From contig JASBTQ010000032.1 in NCBI GenBank assembly GCA_030148335.1, forward strand, positions 186,001 through 250,000: a stretch of DNA of 64,000 nt. Direction: 5' to 3'. This stretch comes from Allomuricauda sp. (GTDB lineage Bacteria; Bacteroidota; Bacteroidia; Flavobacteriales; Flavobacteriaceae). Within the stretch, counting starts at the first letter, position 1. Every line of letters begins with the position of its first letter. This document shows, one piece after another, positions 15,301 through 40,136 of this stretch. The position numbers and the translations under genes were made by a program. The notes under the pieces are model-generated. The model saw only the letters and a program-made list of their open reading frames with translations, was not told the DNA's origin and ran no database searches.

Positions 15301-15896
15301 AAGGAAGACAAATATTTGCCAATGATGGAAGGCCTTTGAGGTCAGATGAAATCAAATTCTTTGGAAGTGCACTGCCCAATTGGGTTGGAGGTATTACCAA
15401 CACGGTGCGCTACAAGGATTTCAACGTATCCTTTCTGATTGACTTTAAATTGGGAGGTAAGATGATTTCCGGAACCAACTTCAATGCCGTTAGACACGGT
15501 CTCCATAAAATGACCCTTCCCGGAAGGGATACCGGGGTCATCGGAGAAGGGGTGAACCAAGCAGGAGAACCCAATACGGTTGCAACAGAACCCCAGACCT
15601 ATTGGGAAGTGGTGCGCTCACAGCAATTGATAGAACCCATCGTGTACAATTCCGGGTTCTGGAAATTGAGGCAGATTACCGTGGGCTATGATTTCCAAAA
15701 GTTCATTCCAGAGAACTCCTTTGTGCAAGGGGTTACCCTCAGCCTGATTGCAAACAATGTGGCGATACTCAAAAAATGGGTTCCCAACATTGATCCCGAC
15801 TCCTTTGCCTATAGCTCGGACAACGTTTCTGGACTGGAATCCACTGGTGTGCCAACTACAAGAAGTATCGGGTGTAACCTAAACATCAAATTCTAA
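12390..15896 (+). CDS. SusC/RagA TonB-dependent transporter with STN signalling domain
   Basis: An 1168-residue SusC. After the signal peptide (about 1-40) comes an STN domain (about 50-110, MENVEIMQVFEQIESVSEFKFF is its first helix region), which contacts FecR. A CarboxypepD_reg-like domain (about 140-215, ISGKITDSNGVPIPGASV), a TonB box (LNEVVVTALG), a plug (about 235-370, VRIRGQSSISG and GATGAALYGSRAKDGVI) and a C-terminal barrel ending in LNIKF follow. With the SusD-like lipoprotein 10 bases downstream it forms a surface uptake complex. The STN domain and the sigma/FecR pair upstream show that this transporter also senses its ligand, which sets it apart from the pair at 683-5780. Confidence 0.95.
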   Translation: MKNYIKSTLPCLTNNLSLTVKLTALFLTVSFFSTYANSYSQKTKLSLDMENVEIMQVFEQIESVSEFKFFYDNKKVNAHRKVSINVDKKSITEILDQLFQGTNITYVFIKQQIILKTKNAIDGVPMEAGRPPFPDVEPQATISGKITDSNGVPIPGASVIEKGTTNGVAANFDGVYQITVQNSNAVLLVSSIGFTRKEIPVGGATTLDIVLQEDTQNLNEVVVTALGIKQETKKLGYSIAQVDAEEVNVNRSSNFMNTLQGKVAGVNIASLSSGPGGSSKVRIRGQSSISGTNNPLIVVNGVPIDNTSFGTSPGSTSTEVGTNSAGVFSDGGDGFSSINPDDIESMTILKGATGAALYGSRAKDGVIMITTKSRGRQQGIGVTYNLNVMDHTPLDFTDYQYEYGQGEFGVRPTSVNPTSGQWSFGERFQPGMTQVLFDGVEVPYVPVYDRIKKFYRNGTDITNSISISSGSEKGGFNLSLSNLGSKGITPNNEFNRKTVNLGANYDLSDKLSIETHINYSYEKNVNPPNVGEQDNTIPVALFNMANSMPLDLLDEKKFNADGNEFVYSRFRNRTNPYFTLSEQFNEIRRDRIFGNVAARYKILSWLTGQIRVGQDYWSRSQEFNGFPTGQASRQAAPEPFFNGTYTQTARRYRETNVDFLFSGDFDLSEDLGLGFNIGGNQLRRRQELNQVDVTDFVIRDLYTVQNGRVKNPTFSMSERGINSLYGAVDLSYKDTYFLSGTARNDWFSTLAKENRSILYPSISGSVLFSNWTGDGAEWLTLGKLRAAYAEVGSDTDVSPYSDALFYDINANFFPGPDGAPNPVAGANTSILPNPDLRPMRVKETEIGLDLRMFDNRVGLDVAVYRKTTIDQIIPAQISNSSGFISQLINSGESRSDGIEMLLNLTPIRNDDLRWDFSFNASYNKTKVISLLSDEEGESILVGNHVFNGYLYQVVGKEIGQLAGFGYKFDDQGRQIFANDGRPLRSDEIKFFGSALPNWVGGITNTVRYKDFNVSFLIDFKLGGKMISGTNFNAVRHGLHKMTLPGRDTGVIGEGVNQAGEPNTVATEPQTYWEVVRSQQLIEPIVYNSGFWKLRQITVGYDFQKFIPENSFVQGVTLSLIANNVAILKKWVPNIDPDSFAYSSDNVSGLESTGVPTTRSIGCNLNIKF

Positions 15897-15906
15897 ACAA
15901 GACATC

Positions 15907-17442
15907 ATGAAAAATATAGGGAATAAAATCATAATTTTTGTAATCCTGATAGGTCTATTGGGGTGCGAAAAGAATTTTGATGAACTCAATACCAATACCG
16001 TTGACCCCACAAGCGAAAGCATAGACCCTGTCTTCTTGTTGAACAATGCAATAGTCGGGCTCTCCTTTCCAAGTGGTACCAATATCTACTATGATGAGGC
16101 CATTGTACAGCAGATAGTCACACCGAACTCGGGATTTGTGGCCGGGGCCAACTATAATCAGGATAACCGGAACAATACTGGAAACCAGTGGGATACATAT
16201 TATGAAAACGTCATAAAACATACCAGTGACGTTATTTTTCAGCTGAGCACTCAAGAATCGGACCGTACCAATTTATTGCAGATGGCCCGTATCTTGGAAG
16301 CTTATGCTTTTATGGTGTTGACCGATGAATATGGGGAAATTCCCTACTTTGAGGCAGGTAAGGGCTTGTCGGAGCAGGTGGTTTTGCCCAACTATGACCC
16401 TCAGGAACAGATCTATCCGGATCTGATCACGGAATTGACAGAAGCACGGGATGCCCTGAGTGATGCTGCCCCAGCTGAAAACGGGGAGGCCATGTACGCA
16501 GGAAATCTGGATCAGTGGAGAAAATTGGCCAACTCCCTCTTGGTCAGGATCGGGATGCGACTTTCCAATGTAGATGCCTCCTTGGCAGAACAGACCGTTC
16601 AAAGTGGTTTTGATGGAGGGGTGATGGAGTCTAATGACGATAATTTTGTGGTGCGCCATGATACCAATTTCACCAACCCATACAGCTTTACCTTTAATGG
16701 AACAGAAGCCAATAACTTTTATTTGACGGACGTGTTTGTAGACTACCTGTATGGAAGCAATGACCCACGGTTGGCCTCATTGGCCATCAGATATGTGGGT
16801 GCCGCATCAGGACCGGACCAAGTGGTGGACATCGCCTCAAAGGACCCCGATGATCAGATAGGGATGCCCATGGGGTATGACAACAGTACCATTGGCACTG
16901 TGGTGGCCAATGAAGGACTCGCCAGTTTCTACGACTTTTCCCAGTTGGATCGGTTCACATATGGTGCCCAATCCTCACCCATGTTCCTCTGTACCTATGC
17001 ACAGACCCAATTATTGTTGGCAGAAGCAGCGGTCAATGGTTGGGTATCGGGTGATGCGGCCGAATATTACGAGAATGGAATACGCGGACATATGGAGCAG
17101 GTGGCTGCCTATGGGGAAAGTGTGGCCATTGCCGGGACGGATATTGATACTTATATAGCCGCCAATCCATTGGATATGGGCAATGCTATTGAGGAAATCA
17201 ACACACAATATTGGGTGGCTTCCTTTTTGAACGGACCAGAGCTGTTCGCCAATTTTAGAAGGTCTGGCTATCCAGATCTGACACCCAATCCCTATCCCGC
17301 CCAGGATATCACCGGTGATTTCATAAATAGGTTGACCTATCCCCCTGACGAAATAGCAGTAAATCAGGAAAACCTTCAAGAGGCGGTTTCCAGAATGGGC
17401 CCCGACAATTTGGATACGAAGGTTTGGTGGGATGTAGATTAA
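15907..17442 (+). CDS. SusD-like outer-membrane lipoprotein (SusD-like_2 type)
   Basis: A 511-residue lipoprotein with lipobox LLGC (Cys 20). The opening FDELNTNTVDPT and the long TPR-like region match the SusD-like_2 (PF12771) branch rather than the RagB branch of the protein at 683-2626. It should bind ligand at the cell surface over the SusC encoded 10 bases upstream. It is followed after 33 bases by the Tat-exported dehydratase gene, so uptake and periplasmic breakdown look co-transcribed. Confidence 0.92.
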   Translation: MKNIGNKIIIFVILIGLLGCEKNFDELNTNTVDPTSESIDPVFLLNNAIVGLSFPSGTNIYYDEAIVQQIVTPNSGFVAGANYNQDNRNNTGNQWDTYYENVIKHTSDVIFQLSTQESDRTNLLQMARILEAYAFMVLTDEYGEIPYFEAGKGLSEQVVLPNYDPQEQIYPDLITELTEARDALSDAAPAENGEAMYAGNLDQWRKLANSLLVRIGMRLSNVDASLAEQTVQSGFDGGVMESNDDNFVVRHDTNFTNPYSFTFNGTEANNFYLTDVFVDYLYGSNDPRLASLAIRYVGAASGPDQVVDIASKDPDDQIGMPMGYDNSTIGTVVANEGLASFYDFSQLDRFTYGAQSSPMFLCTYAQTQLLLAEAAVNGWVSGDAAEYYENGIRGHMEQVAAYGESVAIAGTDIDTYIAANPLDMGNAIEEINTQYWVASFLNGPELFANFRRSGYPDLTPNPYPAQDITGDFINRLTYPPDEIAVNQENLQEAVSRMGPDNLDTKVWWDVD

Positions 17443-17475: not shown

Positions 17476-18975
17476 ATGAAATCAGTATTAAAACAGATCA
17501 TTGCCAAGAACAAGCAAGAAGAAAAAGACCTTGGGTTGGCCAGGCAGGCAGAAATGGAAAACCCAAAAACTACCGACGACAGAAGAAACTTTCTGAAAAA
17601 GACGGCCTTGGGTGGCATTGCAATGACCGGAATGATGGGGCTGGGCATAGAGGATACCATAGCACAGACCACTTCCAAGGTCAGCCGTATGTCCGCACCT
17701 TCGGAACTCAAGATTACCGACATGAGGTATGCCCTTACCAATGTGATGGGAGGCACGGCCATAATCAAGATAGAGACCAATCAAGGTATTTACGGTCTTG
17801 GAGAGGTAAGGGACGCGGCGGACGTGCGTTATGCACTTTTTCTTAAAAGCCGGATTTTGGGCAAAAACCCTTGCAATGTCGAAAAGATATTCAAGAGCAT
17901 AAAACAATTCGGAGGACCTGCCAGGCAAGCCGGAGGAGTCTGTGCTGTTGAAATGGCACTTTGGGATATTTGCGGTAAGGCATACAATGTGCCCGCTTGG
18001 CAATTGCTTGGGGGAAGATATAGGGACAAAGTAAGGCTCTATGCAGATACCCCCGAAGCATCCTCTCCTGAAGAGCAAAAACGACTGATAGATTTCAGGG
18101 TAAACGAACAGGGATACACTTGGCTGAAAATGGATGTTTCCATTGGCGAGCTAAGGGGCAAGCCCAATACTGTGGTCAATGGAAAGTTCTGGGAAAACGA
18201 TAAAGGAGTTTTGGCCCAATGGGGCGATCGGAGCAATCCGATGTCCTACGCGAACACTATGCACCCCTTTACCCAGATACAGATCACCGAAAAAGGACTT
18301 GAGGAACTGCAGCGGGTAGTAGAGGACGTTCGGAACATGGTAGGTTATGAAATTCCGATTTCAACCGATCATTATGGACATTTTGACCTCAATAACGGGA
18401 TACGCTTGGCAAAAGCCCTTGACAAATACAGGTTGGCTTGGTTCGAGGACATGGTGCCCTGGCAGTACAATGAGCAATGGAGGACCATAACCGATACCAT
18501 TGAGACACCCACGACGACAGGTGAGGATATCCATTTCTTGGAGAACTTTAAGCCTCTCATTCATAACAGGTCAGTTGATATCATCCACCCAGACTTGGCA
18601 TCATCAGGCGGTCTTTTGGAAACAAAAAGAATCGGCGACTATGCCGAGGAATATGGTATTGCCATGGCCATGCACCAAGCTGGCACACCTGTCTCCTTCA
18701 TGGCCAATGTGCATTGTGCGGCTGCGACCCAAAACTTTTTGGCCCTGGAGCATCATTCAGTGGATGTGCCTTGGTGGGAAAGCTTGGTAAAAACGGTTGG
18801 TGGTTTTAAGATGATCGACAAAGGTTTTGCCACCGTTCCGCTTACCGCACCAGGTTTGGGGATAGAGTTGGATGAAGAAGTGGTGAAGGAACATTTGCAT
18901 CCTTCGGATAAAACATTCTTTAAATCCACTGAGGAATGGAATGAGCTTCGTTCCCATGACAGGAGCTATAGTTGA
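17476..18975 (+). CDS. Tat-exported enolase-superfamily sugar-acid dehydratase (first copy)
   Basis: A 499-residue member of the mandelate racemase/muconate lactonising group. A twin-arginine motif DRRNFLKK (Arg 36-37) precedes a hydrophobic stretch, so the enzyme is expected in the periplasm, which is unusual for this superfamily. Candidate active-site residues are Lys 218 (LKMD), metal ligands Asp 298, Glu 324 and Glu 350, and the His-Asp dyad Asp 373 (HPDLASSGG) and His 400 (MHQAGTP), a mandelate racemase-type layout as used by aldonate dehydratases. After Asp 298 it reads DHYGH, where the second copy reads DMHGR. The 35-residue segment before the arginines is long for a Tat n-region; an in-frame ATG at 17554 would shorten it. 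Exact aldonate substrate unknown. Confidence 0.85.
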   Translation: MKSVLKQIIAKNKQEEKDLGLARQAEMENPKTTDDRRNFLKKTALGGIAMTGMMGLGIEDTIAQTTSKVSRMSAPSELKITDMRYALTNVMGGTAIIKIETNQGIYGLGEVRDAADVRYALFLKSRILGKNPCNVEKIFKSIKQFGGPARQAGGVCAVEMALWDICGKAYNVPAWQLLGGRYRDKVRLYADTPEASSPEEQKRLIDFRVNEQGYTWLKMDVSIGELRGKPNTVVNGKFWENDKGVLAQWGDRSNPMSYANTMHPFTQIQITEKGLEELQRVVEDVRNMVGYEIPISTDHYGHFDLNNGIRLAKALDKYRLAWFEDMVPWQYNEQWRTITDTIETPTTTGEDIHFLENFKPLIHNRSVDIIHPDLASSGGLLETKRIGDYAEEYGIAMAMHQAGTPVSFMANVHCAAATQNFLALEHHSVDVPWWESLVKTVGGFKMIDKGFATVPLTAPGLGIELDEEVVKEHLHPSDKTFFKSTEEWNELRSHDRSYS

Positions 18976-19067
18976 CAATAGGATAACATTCTTCCAAATA
19001 AAGGTGGTGTTCCATTGCGATCGCCCCTTTATTTGGGAGTAAGATTTTGAGTTAGTTTAGTTTGAGT

Positions 19068-19110
19068 TTGATAGGAGGACTCCCGTTTTTAACGGGGGTT
19101 TCCTATCTCA
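19068..19110 (+). terminator. Hairpin after first dehydratase gene
   Basis: An outer stem GATAGGA / TCCTATC (19070-19076, 19101-19107) encloses an inner stem CCCGTT / AACGGG (19082-19087, 19091-19096). TTTGAGTTAGTT (19046-19057) precedes it, the same 12-mer found before the terminator at 590-624. It probably ends or attenuates the SusC-SusD-dehydratase transcript before the next gene. Confidence 0.6.
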
Positions 19111-19174
19111 CTTAATCCATTGGAAAATTAGTATGGATCATCCCGTATGTAAGGAAAAATTAAAAAATACAGAA

Positions 19175-20113
19175 ATGAGAAATTTAAGGATAGTATTGGT
19201 GCTAAGTTGTTTTCTTGGGTTTTTTTATGCCAGATCGCAAGGAGTAACGGCCTCACCAGAATATATTAAGGAACTGACCTCCAACTGGACCGGTGAGCGT
19301 TTTGCCGACGGAAGGCCAAAAGTTTCCGATGCCCTATTGCAAAGAATGAAAAAAATCCAAATAGAGGAAGCTTGGGGCTTTTTAAGAAGAAAGGGATATA
19401 ACAATCAATATGAAGGGGAATGGGAAATAATCCATCCAGAAAATGCCATGACCGGTAGGGTGGTAACCGCACAATATATGCCCCTTAGACCGGACTATCA
19501 ACAATTGGTGAAACTTAAAGGAGCACAAGAGAAACGTGACACCATCGGTGGTAGTAACTCATGGCCCATTCAACAATTGGTGCCTGGGGATGTTTATGTG
19601 GCAGATGGCTACGGAAGAATCATCGATGGCACCCTGATCGGCTCCAATTTAGGGAATGCCATCTATACCAATTCCAAAAACGGGGTAATTTTTGACGGTG
19701 GCGTAAGGGATGTAGCAGGTCTTTTGGACATTGAGGGATTCAATGGATGGTACAAAGGTGCAGACCCTTCTTATTTACAGGAAGAAATGTTGACCAGTAT
19801 CAACATGCCCATCCGTGTTGGAAGGGCAATCGTATTACCCGGTGATGTGGTTTTGGCGAACCAACATGGAACCATTTTCATTCCTTCCCATTTGGCTTCG
19901 GAATTGGTGCTTTCCTCTGAAATAGTGGGCCTTCGCGATCTTTTTGGATTTCAAAGGTTACGGGAAAAAAAATATACGGCAGGACAGATAGATACCAAAT
20001 GGACAAAAGAGATCAATGCAGATTTTGAAAATTGGCTAAAGGAATATCCAGATAGCAAGCTGCCCATGACCAGAAAGGAACTTAATGATTATATGGCATC
20101 CAAAAAAGATTAG
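19175..20113 (+). CDS. Exported RraA-family protein, altered aldolase motif (first copy)
   Basis: A 312-residue protein with a Sec signal peptide (about 1-22) and the RraA/class II pyruvate aldolase fold: GDVYVADGYGRI, GNAIYTNSKNGVIFDGGVRDVAGL and PGDVVLANQHGTIFIP. RraA-like enzymes cleave 4-hydroxy-2-oxo acids to pyruvate or decarboxylate oxaloacetate when they keep a D-x20-R-D motif. Here Arg 178-Asp 179 is kept but the first Asp is Ser 157 (IGSNLG), so activity may be lost or changed. The copy at 23085 keeps Asp. The start at 19175 is chosen because it begins the signal peptide; an upstream ATG at 19133 would place 14 polar residues in front of it. It is the first gene after the hairpin at 19070. 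Confidence 0.8.
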   Translation: MRNLRIVLVLSCFLGFFYARSQGVTASPEYIKELTSNWTGERFADGRPKVSDALLQRMKKIQIEEAWGFLRRKGYNNQYEGEWEIIHPENAMTGRVVTAQYMPLRPDYQQLVKLKGAQEKRDTIGGSNSWPIQQLVPGDVYVADGYGRIIDGTLIGSNLGNAIYTNSKNGVIFDGGVRDVAGLLDIEGFNGWYKGADPSYLQEEMLTSINMPIRVGRAIVLPGDVVLANQHGTIFIPSHLASELVLSSEIVGLRDLFGFQRLREKKYTAGQIDTKWTKEINADFENWLKEYPDSKLPMTRKELNDYMASKKD

Positions 20114-20138
20114 ATCCTGTCACCATAAAACCAAACGA

Positions 20139-20612
20139 ATGAAAAATTACCTTTTAAAATATTCCCCTAAATTTTTGATGACCACAAAACCCTTTTTTTT
20201 GGGGATACTTCTCTGTTTCTCTACAGTTTTAATAGCTCAAAAGAATGATGCCGAAGTCAACAAAATCGATGGTGCCGTAAGCCAGCTATACAAGGCCATG
20301 GTCGATGGGAATAAAGATAGATTGGAAGAATTGACCATGGACGGGCTAACCTATGGCCACTCCAGCGGTAAAATAGAGAATAAAACGGAATATGTGGACG
20401 GTGTCTTGCATGGTGGATTTCAATTTTCGTCGATAACCCCGGCAGATCAAACCATTTCAATTTCGGGGAAAACAGGTATGGTACGCCATATTTTTAAGGG
20501 CGAAGGCACCAATAATGGCACATCGGCGACAGTCAAAATAGGTTGCCTATTGGTGTTTCAAAAAGAAGGTGGGCAATGGAAATTATTGGCAAGACAGGCA
20601 TATAAACTTTAA
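20139..20612 (+). CDS. Secreted NTF2-like (DUF4440-type) protein
   Basis: A 157-residue protein with an N-terminal signal peptide (about 1-34, FFLGILLCFSTVLIAQ) and an NTF2/SnoaL-like cone fold pattern: KIDGAVSQLYKAMVDGNKDRLEELTMDGLTYGHSSG at the start of the mature protein and a final strand GQWKLLARQAYKL. Family members are small enzymes or ligand-binding proteins, often isomerases or cyclases. Its place between an RraA-type gene and the BASS transporter suggests a role in handling the keto-acid intermediates, but the reaction is unknown. The ATG at 20139 is chosen over one at 20085, which lies inside the previous gene. Confidence 0.75.
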   Translation: MKNYLLKYSPKFLMTTKPFFLGILLCFSTVLIAQKNDAEVNKIDGAVSQLYKAMVDGNKDRLEELTMDGLTYGHSSGKIENKTEYVDGVLHGGFQFSSITPADQTISISGKTGMVRHIFKGEGTNNGTSATVKIGCLLVFQKEGGQWKLLARQAYKL

Positions 20613-20623
20613 TTCCTTCTATT

Positions 20624-21730
20624 TTGAAAAATATCACAATATATTCAATAGCACTGGGATTGGCGGCATTGCTGTTCCTGATAATTATTGGGATGGCCAT
20701 CATGGGCCATATTGATCAGGCCGGACTATTCACCCTTGGATTTTTTGCTTTGTTGGCCTTCGGGTTCAACGGGTACGAAAAAATGAAGGGATTGATATTC
20801 ACCACAATGATCTTCGCAGGGGTAACGGCAGCGCTGTATTACCCTACTTACTTTACCCATATGGGTGATTTTAAATTCACCGTGCTGATTATTCCCTTGA
20901 TACAGATCATCATGTTCGGTATGGGAACCACGATGAGCATCAAAGATTTTGCTGCCGTATTCCAATCACCAAAAGGGGTGATGATCGGAGTTTCGGCACA
21001 ACTGATCGTAATGCCCCTAATGGGTTATTTTTTGGCACAGATCAGTAACTTTCCACCGGAAATAGCAGCGGGGATAGTACTCATAGGTTGCTCCCCCAGT
21101 GGGGTGGCCTCCAACGTCATGGCTTTTTTGGCCAACGCCAATGTTGCACTTTCGATAACCATTACTTCCATTGCCACACTTTTGGCACCATTTCTTACGC
21201 CTTTGATGATGAAGTTGTTTGCCGGGGAGTTCATCGAAATAGATGTGTTGGCCATGATGTGGAGTATCGTAAAAATGATCATTATACCTATCGGGGCGGG
21301 CTTGCTCTTTAATAAACTATTTGGCAATAGTTCCAAATGGTTGGGTAGGGCAATGCCCTTGATATCCATGTTGGCCATTGGTCTTATCATCACCATTATC
21401 ACTGCAGCAGGAAGGAACAGCCTTTTGGAAATTGGTGGCATATTGATGCTCTTGGTATTGGCCCATAATCTTTTTGGGTATTTACTGGGCTATTGGTATG
21501 CCAAGTTCTTTGGGATGTCCGAAAAAGACGCCAGAACCATCGCAATTGAAGTGGGAATGCAAAATGGGGGATTGGCATCAGGTATAGCGAACAGCTTGGG
21601 CAAAATTGCCACCATGGGGCTGGCACCGGCCGTATTTGGCCCTTTGATGAATATAACAGGCTCTATTTTAGCTTCTTACTGGCATGGAAAGCCTACTGTG
21701 GAAAAGCCGGAAACTGTAATGACCAATTAA
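20624..21730 (+). CDS. Bile acid:sodium symporter (BASS/SBF) family transporter
   Basis: A 368-residue inner-membrane protein with about ten hydrophobic helices. The family's sodium-site signatures are visible: GCSPSGVASNVMAFLANAN (about 155-173) and IEVGMQNGGLASG (about 308-320). BASS proteins import organic anions with sodium; relatives carry pyruvate, pantothenate, 2-keto acids or sulfonates. Set among exported dehydratase and aldolase genes, it is the obvious candidate to bring the acidic product of the periplasmic steps into the cytoplasm. The start is TTG at 20624, just after the preceding stop, and no ATG fits the N-terminus better. The transported acid is an inference from context. 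Confidence 0.88.
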   Translation: MKNITIYSIALGLAALLFLIIIGMAIMGHIDQAGLFTLGFFALLAFGFNGYEKMKGLIFTTMIFAGVTAALYYPTYFTHMGDFKFTVLIIPLIQIIMFGMGTTMSIKDFAAVFQSPKGVMIGVSAQLIVMPLMGYFLAQISNFPPEIAAGIVLIGCSPSGVASNVMAFLANANVALSITITSIATLLAPFLTPLMMKLFAGEFIEIDVLAMMWSIVKMIIIPIGAGLLFNKLFGNSSKWLGRAMPLISMLAIGLIITIITAAGRNSLLEIGGILMLLVLAHNLFGYLLGYWYAKFFGMSEKDARTIAIEVGMQNGGLASGIANSLGKIATMGLAPAVFGPLMNITGSILASYWHGKPTVEKPETVMTN

Positions 21731-21774
21731 AAAATCAATAATCCATCATCCATTAAATCAAAAATAAGAAACGT

Positions 21775-23058
21775 ATGAAAAATTCAAGAAGATCTTTTAT
21801 ATCCAAATCCATCGTGGCCAGCGCGGGATTGGGAATGGTATCCTCAGTAGCATTTGGTTCGGAATACCAGGAAGCCATGGATAAAAACCCGAAACTATCC
21901 GCACCATCGGACCTGAAAATCACAGACGTTAAATGTGGTTATATTAAACGCGGAAGTAGCTTATTTGTCAAAATATATACCAACCAAGGAATTTATGGTT
22001 GTGGCGAAGGTGTTGATGCCGTTAACGGCACCTACCATCTTGTCCAAATGTTTGGAAGAAGATTGCGGGGCCAAAGTCCGTTCAATGTCCACAAGATTTT
22101 TGAGGATATGCGAAGGGGAGGGCATTTCGGTGGGGCACAATCCGGAATGTACGTGGCCGTAATCTCCGCCATAGAGACTGCCTTGTGGGATTTGTCAGGG
22201 AAAGCCCTTGATCTTCCCGTGTATCAGTTGCTTGGGGGAAAATTTCGGGATAAAGTGAGGGTGTACTGTGATACCGCTCTGTACCGTGTCGAGTTTCCTT
22301 CCCCAGATGATTTTGCCACCGCAGCCAAGGACGCCATCAGTAATTGGGGCTTCAATGCATTGAAATTCGACTTGGATTATGCAAGTGACCCTGATAAATA
22401 TGATCGCTATAATTGGACGGCCAGTCCCGGTGAAATCATAAGAATGTACGATCAGCTTGCTGCAGTGAGGGAAGCTGTGGGTCCAAAAATAGACCTTTGT
22501 GTGGATATGCACGGGCGTTACGATCATGTAACCGCCCAGACCATCGCCAAAAAAGTGGAGGACCTTAACCTGACCTGGTTGGAAGAGCCGATTCCGGCAG
22601 AAAATTTTGATGCGTTCAAAACCCTTGCGGAAGAAACCAGCACACCCATTTCGGCAGGAGAAAATGTATATCTGGGCCACGGATTCAAACAATTGTTGGA
22701 TAATGGGGTGGACATAATCATGCCCGATCTGCAAAAATGTGGCGGACTTGGGGAAGGACAACGCATTGCGAACCTCGCCAATCTATACTACGTTCCCTTT
22801 TCGCCCCACATGGTGGCTTCTTTCTTGGGGGCCATGGCCTGTGCCCATGTGTGCGTCACAGTGCCCAATTTCCATTTGATGGAATGGCAATCCTATTTCC
22901 ACACAGATCCAATGTTCAAGGAAATTGTTACCTACGATGAAGGGGATTGGGTAAAGGACAGTTTTGTGACCGTTTCCAACAAACCCGGCATTGGAGTGGA
23001 CATAAACGAAGAGGCCATGAAGAAATATGCACCGGAAGGTGTGCCATTTTTTGAATGA
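21775..23058 (+). CDS. Tat-exported enolase-superfamily sugar-acid dehydratase (second copy)
   Basis: A 427-residue enzyme with a short clear Tat signal (SRRSFISKS, Arg 5-6) and enolase-superfamily residues Lys 197 (LKFDLD), Asp 244 and His 246 (VDMHGRYD), Glu 270 (WLEEP), Glu 296 (AGENV), Asp 318 (MPDLQKCGG) and His 345 (SPHMVAS). The D-x-H plus distal His-Asp layout is that of D-galactonate-type and related aldonate dehydratases, which give 2-keto-3-deoxy acids. It is a distant paralogue of the enzyme at 17476 (shared opening SAPSDLKITD, TNQGIYG, ALWD.SGKA, YQLLGG). Its stop overlaps an ATG (ATGA) at 23055, so it is coupled to the following RraA-type gene. Substrate undetermined. Confidence 0.88.
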   Translation: MKNSRRSFISKSIVASAGLGMVSSVAFGSEYQEAMDKNPKLSAPSDLKITDVKCGYIKRGSSLFVKIYTNQGIYGCGEGVDAVNGTYHLVQMFGRRLRGQSPFNVHKIFEDMRRGGHFGGAQSGMYVAVISAIETALWDLSGKALDLPVYQLLGGKFRDKVRVYCDTALYRVEFPSPDDFATAAKDAISNWGFNALKFDLDYASDPDKYDRYNWTASPGEIIRMYDQLAAVREAVGPKIDLCVDMHGRYDHVTAQTIAKKVEDLNLTWLEEPIPAENFDAFKTLAEETSTPISAGENVYLGHGFKQLLDNGVDIIMPDLQKCGGLGEGQRIANLANLYYVPFSPHMVASFLGAMACAHVCVTVPNFHLMEWQSYFHTDPMFKEIVTYDEGDWVKDSFVTVSNKPGIGVDINEEAMKKYAPEGVPFFE

Positions 23059-23084
23059 TCAATAACAAATCAAACCATACTATT

Positions 23085-24020
23085 ATGTCGAGAAAAACAT
23101 ATATGTTGTTAATGGTCCTTGCAAGTCTGACAACCCAAATGATGGCTCAGCAGATCAGCAAGGAAGAACTTATTTTTTTGACCCCTGAATGGAAAGGGGA
23201 ACGTTTTGAAGATGGCAGGCCCAAGGTGTCCGATGCGCTATTGGAGAGGATAAAATCCGTTAGTGTTGAAGAGGCATGGGCGGTCATGAAAAATGAAGGG
23301 TATCGTTATCAAATTGCGGAGGACTGGAAATTGATCAATCCAGATAGTGTCTTGGTCGGGCGTGCGGTCACGGCAACCTTTATGCCAGGTCGTCCCGATG
23401 TTTGGAAAGCTATTGATGACCGTGGAAAGGCCCAGGGAAAACGAGGGCAGAACACCTGGCCCGTGGATATTTTGGTCAAGGGCGATGTGTATGTGGCCGA
23501 CCAATTTGGTGCTGATAGGGATGGCCCAACCATTGGGGACAATGTCGGCAACGCCATTTTTGCAAAATCGGGCAACGGAATTGTTTATGATGGTGCTCTC
23601 AGGGATGTTGAAGGACTCATGGAAATAGGAGGTTTTACCTCTTTTTATACGAGTTATGATGCTTCACACCATAATCCTCCCGGAGATCTGAATACCATGC
23701 TCATCGGTATCAATCAACCAACTAGGATCAGAACCGTCACTGTAATGCCCGGGGATGTGGTTTTGGGCAAAATGGGAGTAGTAACCTTTATACCCCCACA
23801 TTTGGCGGAGAAGGTGGCCACAACTTCCGAAGTTGTCCGTTTACGCGATATGTTCGGACACCAACGTATCAAGGAAGGCGTCTATACGGCCGGACAAATC
23901 GATACGCGATGGGCCGAAGAAATCGAAAAGGATTTTAGCAAATGGCTCAACGAACACATTGACGAACTTCCTGTTTCCCGAGAGCAAATCCAAGAAATTT
24001 TGAAGAAAAGAACTTGGTAA
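23085..24020 (+). CDS. Exported RraA-family aldolase candidate, intact motif (second copy)
   Basis: A 311-residue protein with a Sec signal peptide ending near MMAQQ (about 1-22). The D-x20-R-D motif linked with class II pyruvate aldolase and oxaloacetate decarboxylase activity is intact: Asp 152 (IGDNVGN), Arg 173 and Asp 174 (ALRDVEGL). It is therefore the better aldolase candidate of the two copies and may cleave a 2-keto-3-deoxy-aldonate into pyruvate and an aldehyde in the periplasm. Both copies share an N-terminal WKGERFEDGRPKVSDALL-type block absent from cytoplasmic RraA. An ATG at 23055 overlaps the previous stop but would place ten polar residues before the signal, so 23085 is preferred. 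Confidence 0.83.
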   Translation: MSRKTYMLLMVLASLTTQMMAQQISKEELIFLTPEWKGERFEDGRPKVSDALLERIKSVSVEEAWAVMKNEGYRYQIAEDWKLINPDSVLVGRAVTATFMPGRPDVWKAIDDRGKAQGKRGQNTWPVDILVKGDVYVADQFGADRDGPTIGDNVGNAIFAKSGNGIVYDGALRDVEGLMEIGGFTSFYTSYDASHHNPPGDLNTMLIGINQPTRIRTVTVMPGDVVLGKMGVVTFIPPHLAEKVATTSEVVRLRDMFGHQRIKEGVYTAGQIDTRWAEEIEKDFSKWLNEHIDELPVSREQIQEILKKRTW

Positions 24021-24107
24021 ACTAAAATTACTTTGACAACTACCATTGTTCGGCGGAAAGTAAGAAATACGCTTCCGCTTGGCAGAATGGACTTTTCATC
24101 TATAACA

Positions 24108-26360
24108 ATGTCAAATATTAAATTCACGGTTACATCTTGGTGCACCTTGATGGTAGGGTTAGTTTTAGTCCTTATAACAGGATGCCAGACCCCTTCAAAG
24201 GAAATTTCTGGGCACACCACGTGGTCACACTACGGAGGTAGTCCCGATCAATCCAAATTCTTTGAGACGCCCAGCATCACAAAGTCCAATGTTGGGGAAA
24301 TGGAATTGTTATGGAGTTATCCTTCCGGGGATGATCGATTTTATTTTTTCAACCCCATCATTGCGGACAGTACCATGTACGTTCTCGGGAAAAATAGCTC
24401 CCTTATTGCCATTAGTGCCAAAACGGGTGAAGAACTTTGGATACATACAGATTTGCCGGGAATTACTCGAAGGGGTATCAATTATTGGGAAAGTAAGGAC
24501 AAAAAAAACAAGAGATTACTCTTCACGCTGAACAATTCCCTTCAGGCCATTGATGCAGTTACCGGAAAATCCATTATGGATTTTGGCACCAATGGCTATG
24601 TGGACCTTCGCGAAGGTTTGGATCGGGACCCAACCTCCATAACACGGATACAGCCCATGATGCCCGGTGTTATCTACGATGACCTTTTAATATTGGGGTC
24701 TGCCCCGGGAGAAAACTATTTTTCGCCACCTGGTCACGTCAGGGCCTACAACGTGATCACGGGTAAACTGGAGTGGATCTTTCACACCATACCCCATCCA
24801 GGTGAATATGGGTATGAAACTTGGCCGAAGGATGCTTATAAATATGTCGGAGGCGCTAATGTATGGAGCGAAATATCGGTGGATACCGAACGTGGAATTG
24901 CCTATTTGCCCATCGGTTCGCCAACCTATGATTATTATGGAGCCGATCGGTTGGGCAGTAACCTTTTTGCCAATTCGTTGGTGGCCCTTGATGCAAAAAC
25001 AGGGGAGAGGTTCTGGCACTACCAAACGGTACACCATGATCTTTGGGACTATGATCTGTCCCCGGCCCCACAATTGCTCACAGTGGACAAAGATGGTAAA
25101 AAGGTGGATGCAGTGGCCATTGCCACCAAACATGGTTTCGTTTTTGTGTTTGATCGGGTAACCGGGGAGCCTATTTTCCCCATCGAGGAAAAACCGTTTC
25201 CCAAAAGCGAAATGCCAGGGGAAGAATCTTGGCCTACACAGCCTATACCTTCCCTTCCGAGTTTTACGAGACATGAAGTTACAGCCAAGAACCTGAATCC
25301 CTACTTTTCGGATAGTCTTCGGCAAGCTTGGCTCAAAAGATTGGATACCACCAAATCAGGGCTGTACGTGCCGCCATCGGACAAATATGAAACCATCATG
25401 ATGCCAGGGGCCTTGGGCGGAGCAAATTATGGCAATACCGCTGGCGATCCCCAAAATGGCATGCTATACATCCTGACCCAGGAATATGCTTCCATCTATC
25501 GATTGAACAAGGTGGAACCGCCAAAAAATGAGCTTACGGAAAACGATATTGATAGGGTAAAATCCCTTTATGGCTCTTCGTGTATTGCCTGTCATGGTCC
25601 AAATATGGAGGGTGGGGCAGGCCCGTCCCTAAAGAATCTGGGGCATCATATGTTCTACGAGGATTTTAGGAATACGGTAATCAATGGAAAAGGTGTAATG
25701 CCCGGTCTGGTGCATGTGGATGAAGCTTCCTTGAAAGCCTTGTTCCAGTACATTGGGGGTGACCCTGAACGTAGAAGTTTTGGCCGCGGTGGACAGCAAG
25801 GGGAACCCATAGATGGCCCTGTTGTGGCTTCGGGAGGAGTGATTGTACCACCTGATGCGCAAAGAGGTGCCCCAATGCAGGAATATCCACAAGACGTGGA
25901 ACATCCAGAAACCAGATATACCACAGATTATGGTCTGGAATGGCCCGGTTTGATCGATCCACCTTGGTCATCTATCATTGCATATGACCTGAACGAGGGA
26001 ACTATAAAGTGGCGCCGACCTGTAGGGGTCGATTCACTCTACGTACAGGGTGATGAAACCAAAGGGGCTCCCAATGGCACGCAGCGGAAAGGCATGGTCA
26101 TTACCTCAACGGGTATTGTGTTTGCTACGGCAAAAGGAGGTAAGGTTTATGCTTTTGATTCTGAGGATGGGACTGTGCTATGGGAAACTACGCTGAGTCA
26201 TGAGACCAATGCACAACCTAGCATATTTACCTTGGATGGCAAGGAATATTTGGTGATCAATGCCACTTCCGATTTCAGAAGCGATAGTTACGACCACTCC
26301 AAGAAACCCGGGGCAGTCGCAAAAGGCTATCTGGTTTATGGCATACCGGACAAAAAATAG
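24108..26360 (+). CDS. PQQ-dependent dehydrogenase with inserted cytochrome c domain, lipoprotein
   Basis: A 750-residue quinoprotein with a lipoprotein signal (LITGC, Cys 26). The beta-propeller shows repeats such as AKTGEELW, VITGKLEW and AKTGERFWHYQTVHHDLWDYDL, the last being the family hallmark. A class I cytochrome c domain is inserted late in the propeller (about 473-550) with haem motif CIACH (Cys 492, Cys 495, His 496) and probable Met 531. It should oxidise an aldose (or alcohol) to a lactone and pass electrons through its own haem to the respiratory chain, all in the periplasm. It is the likely first enzyme of the oxidative route. The ATG at 24108 is chosen because the lipobox then falls at a normal distance; a TTG at 24033 is further upstream. 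PQQ synthesis genes are not in the window. Confidence 0.9.
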   Translation: MSNIKFTVTSWCTLMVGLVLVLITGCQTPSKEISGHTTWSHYGGSPDQSKFFETPSITKSNVGEMELLWSYPSGDDRFYFFNPIIADSTMYVLGKNSSLIAISAKTGEELWIHTDLPGITRRGINYWESKDKKNKRLLFTLNNSLQAIDAVTGKSIMDFGTNGYVDLREGLDRDPTSITRIQPMMPGVIYDDLLILGSAPGENYFSPPGHVRAYNVITGKLEWIFHTIPHPGEYGYETWPKDAYKYVGGANVWSEISVDTERGIAYLPIGSPTYDYYGADRLGSNLFANSLVALDAKTGERFWHYQTVHHDLWDYDLSPAPQLLTVDKDGKKVDAVAIATKHGFVFVFDRVTGEPIFPIEEKPFPKSEMPGEESWPTQPIPSLPSFTRHEVTAKNLNPYFSDSLRQAWLKRLDTTKSGLYVPPSDKYETIMMPGALGGANYGNTAGDPQNGMLYILTQEYASIYRLNKVEPPKNELTENDIDRVKSLYGSSCIACHGPNMEGGAGPSLKNLGHHMFYEDFRNTVINGKGVMPGLVHVDEASLKALFQYIGGDPERRSFGRGGQQGEPIDGPVVASGGVIVPPDAQRGAPMQEYPQDVEHPETRYTTDYGLEWPGLIDPPWSSIIAYDLNEGTIKWRRPVGVDSLYVQGDETKGAPNGTQRKGMVITSTGIVFATAKGGKVYAFDSEDGTVLWETTLSHETNAQPSIFTLDGKEYLVINATSDFRSDSYDHSKKPGAVAKGYLVYGIPDKK

Positions 26361-26386
26361 TTGAAACACTATACAAAAACAATATT

Positions 26387-27601
26387 ATGAAACCAGTACT
26401 CAGTTTTTTGTTCTGTCTGATGGGCAGCATCTGTATGGCCCAAAACCTCAATGAAAGAGTGGTTCGCAATGATCCTTCTTCATATCGGGAACTGCCCAAT
26501 GTGCATGCAGGTGCCGGAAAAATGGGTTTTACCCAATTGATTGGACGAAATGATATGGCCACAAATTTCCTGTACCTACACTCTGGGGCCATTCAGCCCA
26601 AATCGGGCATTGGTCACCACTTCCACCATTCCATTGAAGAAATGTATGTTATTTTGGATGGAGAGGCTGAATTCACCATTAATGGAAGAACTTCTATAAT
26701 AAAAGGACCGGCCTTGGTTCCCTGTAAACTTGGAGATTCCCATGGCATTTATAATGCATCTGGAAAACCGCTCAAATGGCTGAATTTTGCCGTAAGTGAA
26801 GTCAAGTCACAAGGAGATGCATTTGATTTGGGGGATGATCTCGCCAAAACAAAAAAAGATGTTGTCCCGACATTCGTTTCTTCCCGATTGGACACGGATA
26901 AACTGAAACAAGACAACGATGTTTATAGTGGAAAAGGAGTTTTGTATGGAAGGATTTTTAGTCCAGAAGTTTTTAGAACGGATTGGAACTATGTGGATCA
27001 CTTGGTAATTCCACCCGGCAGTTCAACAGAAAAACACCAGTTGGAAGGTGTTGAAGAAGTATATTATGTCATCAACGGGAACGGATTGGTGACAGTTGGT
27101 TCCGAGACGGCCAAGATTCAAAAGGATGATTCGTTCCATGCTGGTTTGGGAGAAGAAATATCTTGGTCAAGTAGTGGAAATGAAAATCTTGAAATACTTG
27201 TAATTGGCATTGCGGCTTCAAAAGATAGGGGGCTGGCGATTGCCAAACCTTTGGAAACACCCAAGGCCATGGTCCTACAAATGGATTTTGTGGTGGAAAA
27301 GGAAAATGCAAAGGCTTTTGAAGAAATGTACTATTCCATCTACGTTCCTGCCATGGTTGTACAAGACGGGTATCTCAGTTCAAAATTACTTCGGCTTTTT
27401 CCAGATGATTTGGCCAAGGAAATACAGGCAGAGCCTACTCAGTTCAACTATCAGATCCAAATCTCCTTTGATACGGAGGAAAACCGCAGAAAGTGGGTAG
27501 CTAGTGATCAACACCAAATTGCTTGGCCAGCAGCTTCAGGACTTGCCAAGGAATTCAAATGGCGTGGATATGATGTTATGGGCGACGATGTGCAGCATTA
27601 G
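26387..27601 (+). CDS. Secreted bicupin protein
   Basis: A 404-residue protein with a signal peptide (about 1-19, SFLFCLMGSICMAQ) and two cupin domains. The first (about 55-145) has the full metal motif HHFHHSIEEMYVILDGEAEF and a later H (GDSHGIY). The second (about 200-280) has EKHQLEGVEEVYYVINGNG. The C-terminal 110 residues look like a ferredoxin-like dimeric domain (FVVEKENAKAFEEMYYSIYVPAM). Cupins in sugar-acid loci include isomerases, lactone-handling enzymes and dioxygenases; the reaction is not known. It is 26 bases after the PQQ dehydrogenase and converges on the cupin/SMP-30 gene, leaving 17 bases between stops. Confidence 0.8.
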   Translation: MKPVLSFLFCLMGSICMAQNLNERVVRNDPSSYRELPNVHAGAGKMGFTQLIGRNDMATNFLYLHSGAIQPKSGIGHHFHHSIEEMYVILDGEAEFTINGRTSIIKGPALVPCKLGDSHGIYNASGKPLKWLNFAVSEVKSQGDAFDLGDDLAKTKKDVVPTFVSSRLDTDKLKQDNDVYSGKGVLYGRIFSPEVFRTDWNYVDHLVIPPGSSTEKHQLEGVEEVYYVINGNGLVTVGSETAKIQKDDSFHAGLGEEISWSSSGNENLEILVIGIAASKDRGLAIAKPLETPKAMVLQMDFVVEKENAKAFEEMYYSIYVPAMVVQDGYLSSKLLRLFPDDLAKEIQAEPTQFNYQIQISFDTEENRRKWVASDQHQIAWPAASGLAKEFKWRGYDVMGDDVQH

Positions 27602-27618
27602 ACATTATCATCGACACT

Positions 27619-29550
27619 TTACAGATAATTGACATACCCTTTTCTATTGGTGCGAATCTTGTACACCTTATCATAACTGACCATGTAGAGCGTTTTCATA
27701 TCCTCATCCCCAAAACCCAAACTTACCGGAAATGATGGTAGATTGATGATGCCGACAAAAGAACCTTTGGAATCAAAAATCTGGACCCCAAAATAAGTGG
27801 CCACATAAATATTTCCCCTAGTGTCAATGGCCATCCCGTCCGCGCTGGAGGATTTTCCTTTGCGGTCCAAAACGTTGCCAGTCAAACGCAGTTCTGCAAA
27901 TTTCCGACCGTTTGAAATGGTACCGTCCTCGTTCACATCATAGGCCCAAACAAAATTATCCTTGGAACTGTTTACCGGATACCAAGATTCGTCATCGTAA
28001 CAATTATTGATGTAGAGCGTTTTCCCGTCGGGAGTCAATAAAATTCCATTGGGCATGGCAAATTCATTGGGTTCCACCAAGCGGGTCACCTTTTTTTCAG
28101 GGGAAATATAATAAACGGCCCTGCCCGGTTGGAATTTTTCCGTTTCCATCGTAAACTGGGGATCCGTGAAATAGATGCCGCCCTTGGTATCGGTGATAAT
28201 GTCGTTAGGGCCGTCTATGGACTTCCCATCATAAGAATCGACAACAACTTGAACAACTTTTCCGGATGTGGTCATTTCAACTATTCGGTGCCCAATCATG
28301 TCACAGACCAATAAATTGCCATTTTTATAGGGATACAATCCGTTCGCCTGCATTTTACCTTCCATAATATTTTGGTATGTTCCATTAGGTTCCAATGCCA
28401 CAATGGAACTCCTTTTGGGGTCGGCGTTCCAGTTTTGGTCGAAGTACATGTTGGAAAAATAGAGTTTTCCGTCCATCCACTTGGGGCCTTCACTAAAGGT
28501 CAGTTGCGGTTTTGTTTTGGAACCATCAATGACCAATTCTGGCCGTGCGTTCTTTGGTATGATTTCATGATATCTTTCGAGTGACGTTTGTTGCTTGGTC
28601 AGGTAATCTTCCCGAACGGGCCAAAAAATATCAAGGGCATCAAAGCCCAATTCACCTGCTACACCGGAATGTACCACGTTTCCTGGAACAAGGACTATAT
28701 CCTGAGGTTCCAACTCCATCTCTTGATCCAGAACGGTTTGCTTTAGGGTCCCTCTCAACAGAACAGTGATTTGCTCTTCCGGATGAATATGCGCTTTTGA
28801 TTTGGTATTGGGATCCGCAGAAATAAAACTTAGCTGCATGCCTCCTGCGGAAATCAATCTTGCATAGATTCCCTCAGCAAGCTGCGTAAACTGAATATCG
28901 TTAAGGTCATAAACCTTATTGGGCACAATGGTCGGTTCCTTATTGGTAATCCTTTCGTGATTTTCAGAAGAAATTCCAGAAACACCTAATTTTTCCAGAT
29001 AATCCAGCCTTTTTGGGCTATAAATTTCCATTAACTTGGCTCCGGTATCTCCAGCAACAATTTCACTTTGGCTTTCTTTTTCTTGATAAATAAAATCATT
29101 TCTCGGTGTGCCGCTATGGGTGCCATCCGGTTCTTCCCGTTCCCTTGCCATCATTTCATGCTTGTTGCCATTGCCAAACAACTCAATGGATCCCTCAGTC
29201 ACAATCAGAAATCTATCCGCAGGTAAGTTTTCTTTTGGGATGTTGGAATTGGGTTCCAGTTCCAATACACTGACCAGATTCCCATTTCCCCAGAAAATTT
29301 TGGATATGATGCCAGGATATAATTGCACACTTTCCAAATTTTGGAGATTTGTGGATGTTCCTACCTCCAAATTGGGCCTTATTTCTGTAGATGGCAATCC
29401 TGGCAGTTCTCTGACCTGGAGTCCGTATTGCTTTATTAATTCGTTATTTCGCTCCTCCCATTCCGGTTTGGAAGAGGAATTGCAACCACAGATTAAAATA
29501 AATAGAAATAACGTGGAAGCAACTTTAAGACTAAAAGAAATACCTTTCAT
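27619..29550 (-). CDS. Cupin/SMP-30 gluconolactonase-like lipoprotein
   Basis: A 643-residue lipoprotein (lipobox ILICGC, Cys near 23). The N-terminal part carries two cupin-like barrels (about 70-130 and 240-320, the second with KAHIHPEEQITVLLRG). The C-terminal 300 residues are an SMP-30/gluconolactonase propeller: FSEGPKWMDGKLYFSN, IDGPNDI, PNGILLTPDGKTLYIN and SADGMAIDTRGNIYVA, whose acidic residues bind the catalytic metal. It should hydrolyse the aldonolactone made by the PQQ dehydrogenase, in the periplasm. Fusion of cupins to the lactonase is unusual and is echoed by the separate bicupin next door. It is the last gene of a minus-strand esterase operon. Confidence 0.85.
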   Translation of the reverse strand: MKGISFSLKVASTLFLFILICGCNSSSKPEWEERNNELIKQYGLQVRELPGLPSTEIRPNLEVGTSTNLQNLESVQLYPGIISKIFWGNGNLVSVLELEPNSNIPKENLPADRFLIVTEGSIELFGNGNKHEMMAREREEPDGTHSGTPRNDFIYQEKESQSEIVAGDTGAKLMEIYSPKRLDYLEKLGVSGISSENHERITNKEPTIVPNKVYDLNDIQFTQLAEGIYARLISAGGMQLSFISADPNTKSKAHIHPEEQITVLLRGTLKQTVLDQEMELEPQDIVLVPGNVVHSGVAGELGFDALDIFWPVREDYLTKQQTSLERYHEIIPKNARPELVIDGSKTKPQLTFSEGPKWMDGKLYFSNMYFDQNWNADPKRSSIVALEPNGTYQNIMEGKMQANGLYPYKNGNLLVCDMIGHRIVEMTTSGKVVQVVVDSYDGKSIDGPNDIITDTKGGIYFTDPQFTMETEKFQPGRAVYYISPEKKVTRLVEPNEFAMPNGILLTPDGKTLYINNCYDDESWYPVNSSKDNFVWAYDVNEDGTISNGRKFAELRLTGNVLDRKGKSSSADGMAIDTRGNIYVATYFGVQIFDSKGSFVGIINLPSFPVSLGFGDEDMKTLYMVSYDKVYKIRTNRKGYVNYL

Positions 29551-29615: not shown

Positions 29616-32393
<2,778 letters not shown>

Positions 32394-32496
32394 TCAGTTC
32401 CAAAAGTGCACTTGCAAATCTGCCAACGCCGTGGAAAATATGCCCACAGAAACCATATCTTCCAAAATTTGTAAGATCTTTTTCATTGGCATTTAA

Positions 32497-33684: not shown

Positions 33685-33704
33685 GGTACTTTCTTTAGCC
33701 TGAT

Positions 33705-35168
<1,464 letters not shown>

Positions 35169-40110: not shown

Positions 40111-40136
40111 ATTGTTTTGTTTTGGTGGTGTTTTAG

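Follow-up and report, generated by a model that had tools for sequence, protein, structure and literature searches.

Is the dehydration of sugar acids, which the textbook versions of the route keep inside the cytoplasm, carried out in the periplasm of some Bacteroidota? The question is raised by a gene block in a 64,000-nucleotide stretch from the flavobacterium Allomuricauda sp. (assembly GCA_030148335.1, contig JASBTQ010000032.1, positions 186,001 to 250,000; hereafter the window, in whose own numbering positions are given). The block encodes two enolase-superfamily proteins of the mandelate racemase type (MR1 and MR2), two RraA-family proteins (RraA1 and RraA2), a BASS carrier and a pyrroloquinoline quinone (PQQ) dehydrogenase. 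By prediction it is a real, conserved and exported sugar-acid route, and it is considered probable that its exported enzymes oxidise plant or algal sugars and dehydrate the sugar acid in the periplasm, the resulting 2-keto-3-deoxy acid being imported by a carrier of the sodium type and finished inside. What appears to be new is the relocation of the dehydration step to the periplasm within an otherwise familiar route. The export signals, catalytic residues, gene pairing and neighbours were read from the sequence, and from them every reaction, substrate and transport step is inferred. The genes of the block are the following.

12390..17442, plus strand: SusC/SusD pair for outer-membrane uptake (Pfam), at the head of the run
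17476..18975, plus strand: MR1, enolase-superfamily protein with a Tat-type signal, a proposed dehydratase of sugar acids (Pfam MR_MLE N and C domains; start DRRNFLKKT)
19133..20113, plus strand: RraA1, Sec-exported RraA-fold protein with Ser replacing the aldolase Asp (Pfam, motif)
20085..20612, plus strand: DUF4440/SnoaL-like protein, Sec-exported (Pfam)
20624..21730, plus strand: BASS carrier (SBF), proposed importer of 2-keto-3-deoxy acid (Pfam; nearest curated model PanS)
21775..23058, plus strand: MR2, enolase-superfamily protein with a Tat-type signal, a proposed dehydratase of sugar acids (Pfam MR_MLE N and C domains)
23055..24020, plus strand: RraA2, Sec-exported RraA-fold protein with the D..R-D residues kept (Pfam, motif, structural model)
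24033..26360, plus strand: lipoprotein combining a PQQ dehydrogenase and a cytochrome c domain (PF01011, E 1.7e-155; Cytochrome_CBB3; CxxCH; lipobox ITGC)
26387..27601, plus strand: Sec-exported protein with two cupin stretches (Pfam Cupin_2)
27619..29550, minus strand: lipoprotein with cupin and SMP-30/gluconolactonase (SGL) domains (Pfam SGL, E 1e-35; lipobox ICGC)

All the genes named in a preliminary description of this DNA were recovered as open reading frames (ORFs) with Pfam matches. Those from SusC to the cupin gene are co-directional, with ORF gaps of -29 to 157 nt; judged by eye, the true starts of RraA1 and the PQQ dehydrogenase likely lie later, at about 19175 and 24108. The source genome, a 3.44 Mb assembly that is 84% complete, yielded two RraA-family genes, RraA1 and RraA2.

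Relatives were compared in a family set of 299 genomes, with 40 family loci examined for gene order, in a phylum set of 395 genomes, searched at E 1e-50, and in a named-contig collection in which at least 594 stretches matched the search patterns, 498 encode a relative and 80 were kept. Of the latter, 78 loci were counted, L175 and L178 having no called RraA (L and G numbers are the locus and genome labels of this comparison). Neighbouring genes were counted in 120 loci. Three contigs appear twice among them, as L106 and L066, L152 and L071, and L156 and L065, and L129, L132, L148 and L157 contribute a few further repeated proteins. The pooled counts of catalytic residues, RraA motif, neighbouring genes and cytoplasmic controls include some of these duplicates; signals, RraA motif and pairing were recounted without them.

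The compartment is indicated by the N-termini. MR1 (DRRNFLKKTALGG) and MR2 (SRRSFISKSIVASAG) have starts of the twin-arginine translocation (Tat) type in which the twin-arginine motif is accompanied by a hydrophobic stretch, and the source genome encodes TatC. Sec-type starts can be read in RraA1, RraA2, the DUF4440 protein and the cupin protein, and the PQQ dehydrogenase and the cupin-SGL protein carry the lipoboxes listed above. When relatives were scored by a home-made rule, with limits chosen by the analyst and proteins cut at a locus edge left out, Tat-type starts were found in 81/82 MR2-like and 44/47 MR1-like proteins, and Sec-type starts in 94/98 RraA2-like and 51/52 RraA1-like proteins. 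The single Tat miss among MR2-like proteins is a broken ORF in L167, and the three among MR1-like proteins are mis-called starts in L034 and L118 and a remote, signal-free MR protein (L119_6). As cytoplasmic controls, the fumarylacetoacetate hydrolase (FAH) family, UxuA and the aldolase of 2-keto-3-deoxy-6-phosphogluconate (KDPG) gave 0/16, 0/12 and 0/9 positives by the Sec rule, and the dehydrogenase of alpha-ketoglutaric semialdehyde (KGSADH) and the kinase of 2-keto-3-deoxygluconate (KDG) gave 1/11 and 1/9; the Tat rule gave no positives in any of them. The export signals that the preliminary description reported on the dehydratases, RraAs, PQQ and cupin-SGL proteins were thus seen again and are conserved in relatives, and signal prediction by the home-made rule returned export-type rather than cytoplasmic starts. 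Judged from these starts, the conservation of the signals in MR and RraA proteins is not due to chance.

That the block is cytoplasmic in effect, its signals having been mis-called, or that its genes share no joint pathway, has very little probability. It draws on the behaviour of short-chain dehydrogenases/reductases (SDR), 12/20 of which were positive by the Sec rule, so that this rule by itself gives false positives on Rossmann proteins. Against it stand the twin-arginine starts of the MR proteins, the pairing of the genes across Bacteroidota and Acidobacteriota (L177, L179 and L180), and the contrast offered by signal-free relatives, namely pairs of an MR-like protein (386 aa) and an RraA (231 aa) in L076 (2180-3340 with 1441-2136) and L094 (3-1163 with 1369-2064), which also indicate that the partnership is wider than export. 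A signal-free or unrelated block was rejected on the conserved signals and the gene pairing.

The second line of evidence concerns the active sites of the MR proteins. Residues D298, E324, E350, H400, E425 and K218 of MR1 are invariant in 47/47 aligned relatives (46 without duplicates), and D244, E270, E296, H345, E370 and K197 of MR2 in 81/81 (76 without duplicates), the alignments comprising proteins of 380-560 aa with at least 45% identity. MR1 and MR2 each contain the three metal-binding acids and the His/Lys that characterize sugar-acid dehydratases of the enolase superfamily, the role of each residue being assigned from that superfamily.

Gene pairing is the third. A same-strand MR directly adjoins RraA in 74 of the 78 loci, those without it being L139, L151, L167 and L169, two of which lie on contigs of at most about 8 kb. 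The subfamilies are matched: RraA2 was paired with MR2 78 times and RraA1 with MR1 41 times, against five discordant cases, and in 12 of the 13 RraA1-MR2 rows RraA1 has MR2 on one side and MR1 on the other. Two paired modules are observed, MR1-RraA1(-DUF4440)-BASS and MR2-RraA2(-BASS), with conserved export starts; a search of other Bacteroidota for the same block with signal peptides had been proposed in the preliminary description. Within the family, RraA1 relatives occur in 32/299 genomes and MR1 in 22/299, all within those 32, with an MR1-RraA gap of at most 274 nt in 18 of the 22 (hypergeometric probability of the co-occurrence 5e-26, a figure that ignores kinship). Across the phylum, exported-type RraA was found in at least 24/395 genomes, a number that may be low since a maximum of five candidates was scored per genome. 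The kept loci belong to Flavobacteriia, Sphingobacteriia, Chitinophagia, Cytophagia and Saprospiria (class names assigned by the analyst) and include Acidobacteriota at 54-64% identity.

The order SusC-SusD-MR1-RraA1 is conserved in relatives, and DUF4440 relatives occur in 13/40 family loci, repeatedly between RraA1 and BASS. In Allomuricauda aurea (L102, which begins inside SusC) the block from SusC to an esterase is kept at 77-95% identity. In L102, L104 and L114 the PQQ dehydrogenase gene is succeeded by one for an exported cupin protein, and from their distribution the PQQ, cupin and SGL genes are best described as an occasional attachment and not as part of the core. Three acidobacterial loci (L177, L179 and L180) contain MR-RraA pairs with 44-46% identity to MR2 and 54-57% to RraA2, suggesting transfer or great age of the pair. 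L112 comes from a record with the actinobacterial name Williamsia sp.; the presence there of SusC/SusD and a BASS-RraA2-MR2 block makes it probable that the bin is misnamed or mixed.

The cytoplasmic end of the route can be approached through the neighbouring genes, whose presence (BASS, FAH, KGSADH, PQQ) was scored within about 10 kb, some loci ending at contig ends. In the window the candidates lie upstream of the block, together with regulatory genes.

7312..8895, minus strand: aldehyde dehydrogenase resembling KGSA dehydrogenase, in which no export signal was recognized (Pfam Aldedh)
8948..10141, minus strand: FAH-family protein and possible dehydratase of 2-keto-3-deoxy-pentonate, in which no export signal was recognized (Pfam, phmmer)
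10487-10984: sigma factor, upstream of the SusC/SusD pair
11100-12263: FecR, upstream of the SusC/SusD pair

The best NCBIfam model of the aldehyde dehydrogenase is 2,5-dioxovalerate dehydrogenase, with a score below the cut-off; in phmmer searches of the PDB the FAH protein matched 9kkt (FAH family protein) with E 5.9e-103 and the 2-keto-3-deoxy-D-arabinonate dehydratase 2q18 with E 2.6e-22. Homologues of the 2-keto-3-deoxy-pentonate dehydratase and KGSADH of Weimberg-type pathways are therefore present near the block, by similarity below curated cut-offs. Elsewhere, KGSADH was found in 10/78 loci, eight of which also have an FAH dehydratase relative. Two Mucilaginibacter loci (L109 and L176) show the order RraA2-MR2-BASS-FAH-KGSADH-IlvD-GntP, GntP being a gluconate permease; the FAH protein of L109 matches the Sulfolobus-type enzyme 2q18 with E 1.8e-44, and the IlvD of that locus scores 842.9 bits with the L-arabinonate dehydratase model, short of its cut-off of 882, and lies above the cut-off of a subfamily of dihydroxy-acid dehydratases. 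L114 has SusC-SusD-RraA2-MR2-BASS-(PF06439)-PQQ-cupin-SGL-FAH with KGSADH on the opposite strand, and in L144 the run BASS-RraA2-MR2-FAH-KGSADH is followed, at a distance of two genes, by araB, araD and araA. The Pricia antarctica DSM 23421 locus (L104) has an alpha-L-arabinofuranosidase, araB, araD, araA and a sodium:solute (SSF) symporter directly before MR2-RraA2-PQQ-cupin, all in one direction, with 262 nt in front of MR2 and the cupin-SGL gene on the opposite strand; MR2, RraA2, the PQQ, cupin and cupin-SGL proteins and the esterase of this locus share 73-93% identity with those of the window. On the contig that carries the block, the source genome also encodes a relative of L-arabinose isomerase. 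Since the neighbours of module 2 are arabinose, FAH/KGSADH and IlvD genes, L-arabinose is the best guess for its sugar.

Module 1 operons continue into KDG kinase and KDPG aldolase in 6/40 family loci (L034, L035 and L041-L044), and in L105 the same two genes follow RraA2-MR2-BASS. In L035 the KDPG aldolase, UxuA and mannonate oxidoreductase lie above NCBIfam cut-offs. Module 1 fits hexonates, and the adjacent UxuA would also allow uronates. KGSADH genes beside MR1 in L033 and L034 were not counted for the pathway; the L034 copy adjoins an apparent hydroxyproline cluster, guessed from N-termini. It is conceivable, with a rather low probability, that the compartment is right and the aldonate reading wrong, the exported enzymes acting on another acid class (aldarates, anhydro-galactonates or ascorbate-type lactones). 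Enzymes for such acids occur in the enolase superfamily, the PDB matches of the MR proteins include a 3,6-anhydrogalactonate cycloisomerase, the cupins have no assigned role, and several loci have UxuA and mannonate oxidoreductase as neighbours, which suggests uronates. Against this, other neighbours are aldonate and pentose genes, with IlvD of the L-arabinonate-dehydratase type in 11, FGGY gluconokinase-like genes in 16, GntP-like genes in 7 and araBDA in 2 of the 120 loci.

Taken in order, the aldonate route would begin with the delivery of sugar by SusC/D and secreted glycosidases and esterases. The PQQ-haem lipoprotein would oxidise the aldose to a lactone, passing electrons to the respiratory chain, and the cupin-SGL lipoprotein would open the lactone. 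The Tat-exported MR1 and MR2 would then produce 2-keto-3-deoxy acids by dehydrating aldonates, each enzyme taking its own stereochemical class; as dehydration removes the C2 and C3 stereocentres, the two dehydratases could share one carrier. The partner RraA would act on this acid by metal-enolate chemistry and BASS would import it. Inside, acids derived from hexonates would meet KDG kinase and KDPG aldolase, and those from pentonates, in module 2 most likely from L-arabinose, the FAH dehydratase and KGSADH, to yield 2-oxoglutarate. The pathway drawn in the preliminary description is retained from exported aldose oxidation through lactone and aldonate to the 2-keto-3-deoxy acid, together with BASS import and a cytoplasmic FAH/KGSADH ending, which agree with the gene order of L114, L109 and L176; periplasmic aldol cleavage by RraA, as discussed below, is the part that is not supported.

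The Weimberg-type pathway consists of an aldose dehydrogenase, a lactonase, an aldonate dehydratase, a 2-keto-3-deoxy-pentonate dehydratase and KGSADH. The proposed route follows the same order of steps and the neighbours of module 2 resemble its cytoplasmic enzymes; however, here the dehydrogenase, lactonase and dehydratase carry export signals, the Tat-type starts of MR1 and MR2 being at odds with the cytoplasmic dehydratase of that pathway, the acid would enter only after dehydration, the dehydratase belongs to the enolase superfamily and an RraA is added. The semi-phosphorylative Entner-Doudoroff and De Ley-Doudoroff routes pass through KDG, and resemble the present case in the KDG kinase and KDPG aldolase that follow module 1 in six family loci, although here KDG would form outside the cytoplasm and reach it through BASS. 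In the periplasmic quinate/shikimate route a PQQ quinate dehydrogenase is followed by a periplasmic dehydratase; Both would place a PQQ-dependent oxidation and a subsequent dehydration outside the cytoplasm, whereas substrates and protein families differ.

Several observations weigh against the proposed route. None of the 10 window proteins scanned reaches an NCBIfam curated cut-off, so substrates are left unassigned; the BASS protein scores 234.8 bits with the PanS ketopantoate/pantoate transporter model, below its cut-off of 400, and the nearest PDB match of both MR1 and MR2, 2qq6, is named only mandelate racemase-like. The signal rule is home-made. As loci were mostly chosen by RraA similarity, the pairing count is conditional on RraA, and in 4/22 genomes (G018, G211, G217 and G231) MR1 is not beside a listed RraA. 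BASS is present in 39/78 loci and absent from the other 39, PQQ dehydrogenase occurs in 3/78, and FAH with KGSADH lies near module 2 in only 8/78. The FAH/KGSADH pair of the window is tied to the block by distance only, and its FAH protein, with 397 aa, belongs to a different subfamily from the 276-298 aa FAH proteins of the conserved loci. KDG kinase and KDPG aldolase were not found near the block in the window; those of the source genome are on another contig, in an apparent hexuronate cluster, and the KDG kinase of L035 falls below its NCBIfam cut-off. PqqC was not found in the source genome, a result made uninformative by control genomes that also gave no match; a PF03070 match there may be TenA.

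The reaction of the RraA proteins is the least settled step. A role as RNase E regulators was rejected for them, as they are predicted to be exported and are paired with MR proteins. The predicted model of RraA2 (pLDDT 89.2) has 5x15 as its best structural match (Z 24.1, root-mean-square deviation 1.9, 198 aligned) and also matches 3noj, the class II pyruvate aldolase of 4-hydroxy-4-methyl-2-oxoglutarate and 4-carboxy-4-hydroxy-2-oxoadipate (HMG/CHA; Z 21.3, deviation 2.3, 198 aligned); among the matches listed, all those with Z > 14 have the RraA/HMG aldolase fold. The motif is D-X20-R-D, its Asp position being taken from the 3noj alignment. The R-D pair is invariant in 151/151 RraA proteins; at the position 21 residues ahead of the Arg, 115 of them carry Asp, 25 carry Ser and 11 carry Ala. 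RraA2 of the window keeps the Asp of HMG/CHA aldolases, while RraA1 and its flavobacterial clade have Ser instead; as many RraA1-type partners outside this clade keep the Asp (21/41 RraA1-MR1 pairs), the Ser looks derived. In 3noj, R123 and D124 steady the enolate and bind metal (PMC5065237). The proteins studied here share the fold and the R-D pair with that aldolase, but the identity in the structural alignment is 17-18%, RraA1 lacks the preceding Asp, and they are exported.

The one studied flavobacterial RraA enzyme found in the literature search is FlDet of Flavobacterium UMI-01, part of the FlRed-FlDet-FlDeg oxidative pathway of 4-deoxy-L-erythro-5-hexoseulose uronate (DEHU). It is a dehydratase/decarboxylase, not an aldolase, which converts 2-keto-3-deoxy-glucarate (KDGR) to alpha-ketoglutaric semialdehyde and does not act on KDG, and its gene lies beside that of a KGSA dehydrogenase (PMC8563752). 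Common to both systems is an RraA-family enzyme beside a KGSA dehydrogenase, with a 2-keto-3-deoxy sugar acid as its substrate, in the window a proposed one; FlDet differs in its 237 residues, in a native N-terminus (Met-Thr-Thr) with no signal peptide evident, and in a substrate limited to KDGR (PMC8563752). Five cytoplasmic RraAs with N-termini like the printed one of FlDet, and taken for FlDet-like, have Ser at the motif position, as in RraA1, and are 22-26% identical to RraA1 and RraA2.

Among the possible reactions, the adjustment of tautomer or epimer without net cleavage was ranked first, as a tentative choice, followed by periplasmic aldol cleavage as a somewhat doubtful second, an FlDet-like second dehydration as an unlikely third and, last and improbable, some other chemistry. 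As a complete scheme, in which RraA1 and RraA2 are periplasmic class II aldolases that release pyruvate and an aldehyde from the 2-keto-3-deoxy acid, with pyruvate as the cargo of BASS, cleavage is rather unlikely. The predicted fold with its 3noj match, the invariant R-D pair and the common Asp at the first motif position favour it, as does the place of RraA in the DgaE-type operons described below, which is where the DgaF aldolase would act. It would leave the KDG kinase and KDPG aldolase, or the FAH dehydratase and KGSADH, of the same operons without a task, which speaks against it, and it is further opposed by the Ser of the flavobacterial RraA1 clade and by the dehydratase/decarboxylase activity of FlDet and its inactivity on KDG (PMC8563752). 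The aldol cleavage put forward in the preliminary description is accordingly less favoured for RraA overall, yet may still apply to RraA2.

Still less probable is an exported FlDet-like RraA that would dehydrate the acid, and in the case of aldarates decarboxylate it, to alpha-ketoglutaric semialdehyde for import by BASS and oxidation by KGSADH. The activity and gene neighbourhood of FlDet (PMC8563752, as above), the Ser shared by RraA1 with the presumed FlDet-like proteins and the KGSADH of 10/78 loci are in its favour; but eight of those 10 loci already have an FAH dehydratase relative, the KDG kinase operons do not fit, and the identity to the presumed FlDet-like proteins is low.

A parallel system lends weight to the 2-keto-3-deoxy acid as the common substrate. 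Six family loci (L049-L054) contain, in one run, an exported amidohydrolase, BASS, RraA, RidA-like proteins in two forms (a twin-arginine RidA and a lipoprotein RidA) and a Tat-type ammonia lyase of the DgaE family; a sorbosone-type PQQ/cytochrome c protein is present in five of the six. Export-type starts, duplicates included, were found in 16/16 DgaE-like proteins (Tat) and, as Sec-type, in 13/14 amidohydrolases, 11/11 sorbosone-type and 13/15 RidA-like proteins; the strict Tat motif fits 2/15 RidA, and the RidA proteins inspected do carry a twin arginine. In such operons a sugar of the N-acetylglucosamine type could possibly be oxidised, deacetylated and deaminated to KDG outside the cell, which would represent an independent convergence on an exported route to 2-keto-3-deoxy acid. 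The sharing of RraA and BASS with the window system supports the action of both on this acid.

There is about an even chance that these systems belong to a general periplasmic keto-deoxy-acid platform of Bacteroidota and some Acidobacteriota, in which more than one exported front end, with Tat-type dehydratases of the enolase superfamily acting on aldonates and a Tat ammonia lyase with RidA on amino-sugar acids, would feed an exported RraA of unassigned chemistry and BASS and then different cytoplasmic endings. If so, it would be a new compartment of central sugar catabolism, in which periplasmic PQQ enzymes take the electrons and sugars are trapped as acids before entry. Widespread polysaccharide degraders would commit sugars to oxidative breakdown before the inner membrane, flux models for marine and soil Bacteroidota would change, and an explanation would be at hand for many exported proteins whose present names go no further than 'RraA family' or 'mandelate racemase'; a BASS subgroup would gain a substrate and the role of exported RraA enzymes would become a testable question. 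In the open-access literature searched, with subscription papers and preprints outside that scope, no description of an exported MR/RraA route was found.

Other genes of the window and its relatives deserve mention. A 3-keto-disaccharide hydrolase (PF06439) lies at 11206-11790 of L114, within its MR2-RraA2-BASS-PQQ run, and a 48% identical protein at 8149-8748 of L064, a possible sign of a connection to 3-keto-sugar routes. After the block of the window, three esterase-like genes with Sec-type starts occupy 29616-34820, two recognized by Pfam (one with a SASA domain) and that at 33705-34820 by likeness only. A glycoside hydrolase family 95 (GH95) gene follows at 35118-37631, and a GH43 gene is located at 6055-7194; together with the esterase-like genes, these are plausible depolymerising partners for hemicellulose or pectin. 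Finally, a tmRNA gene with the tag GENNYALAA was identified on the minus strand at 40136-40533.

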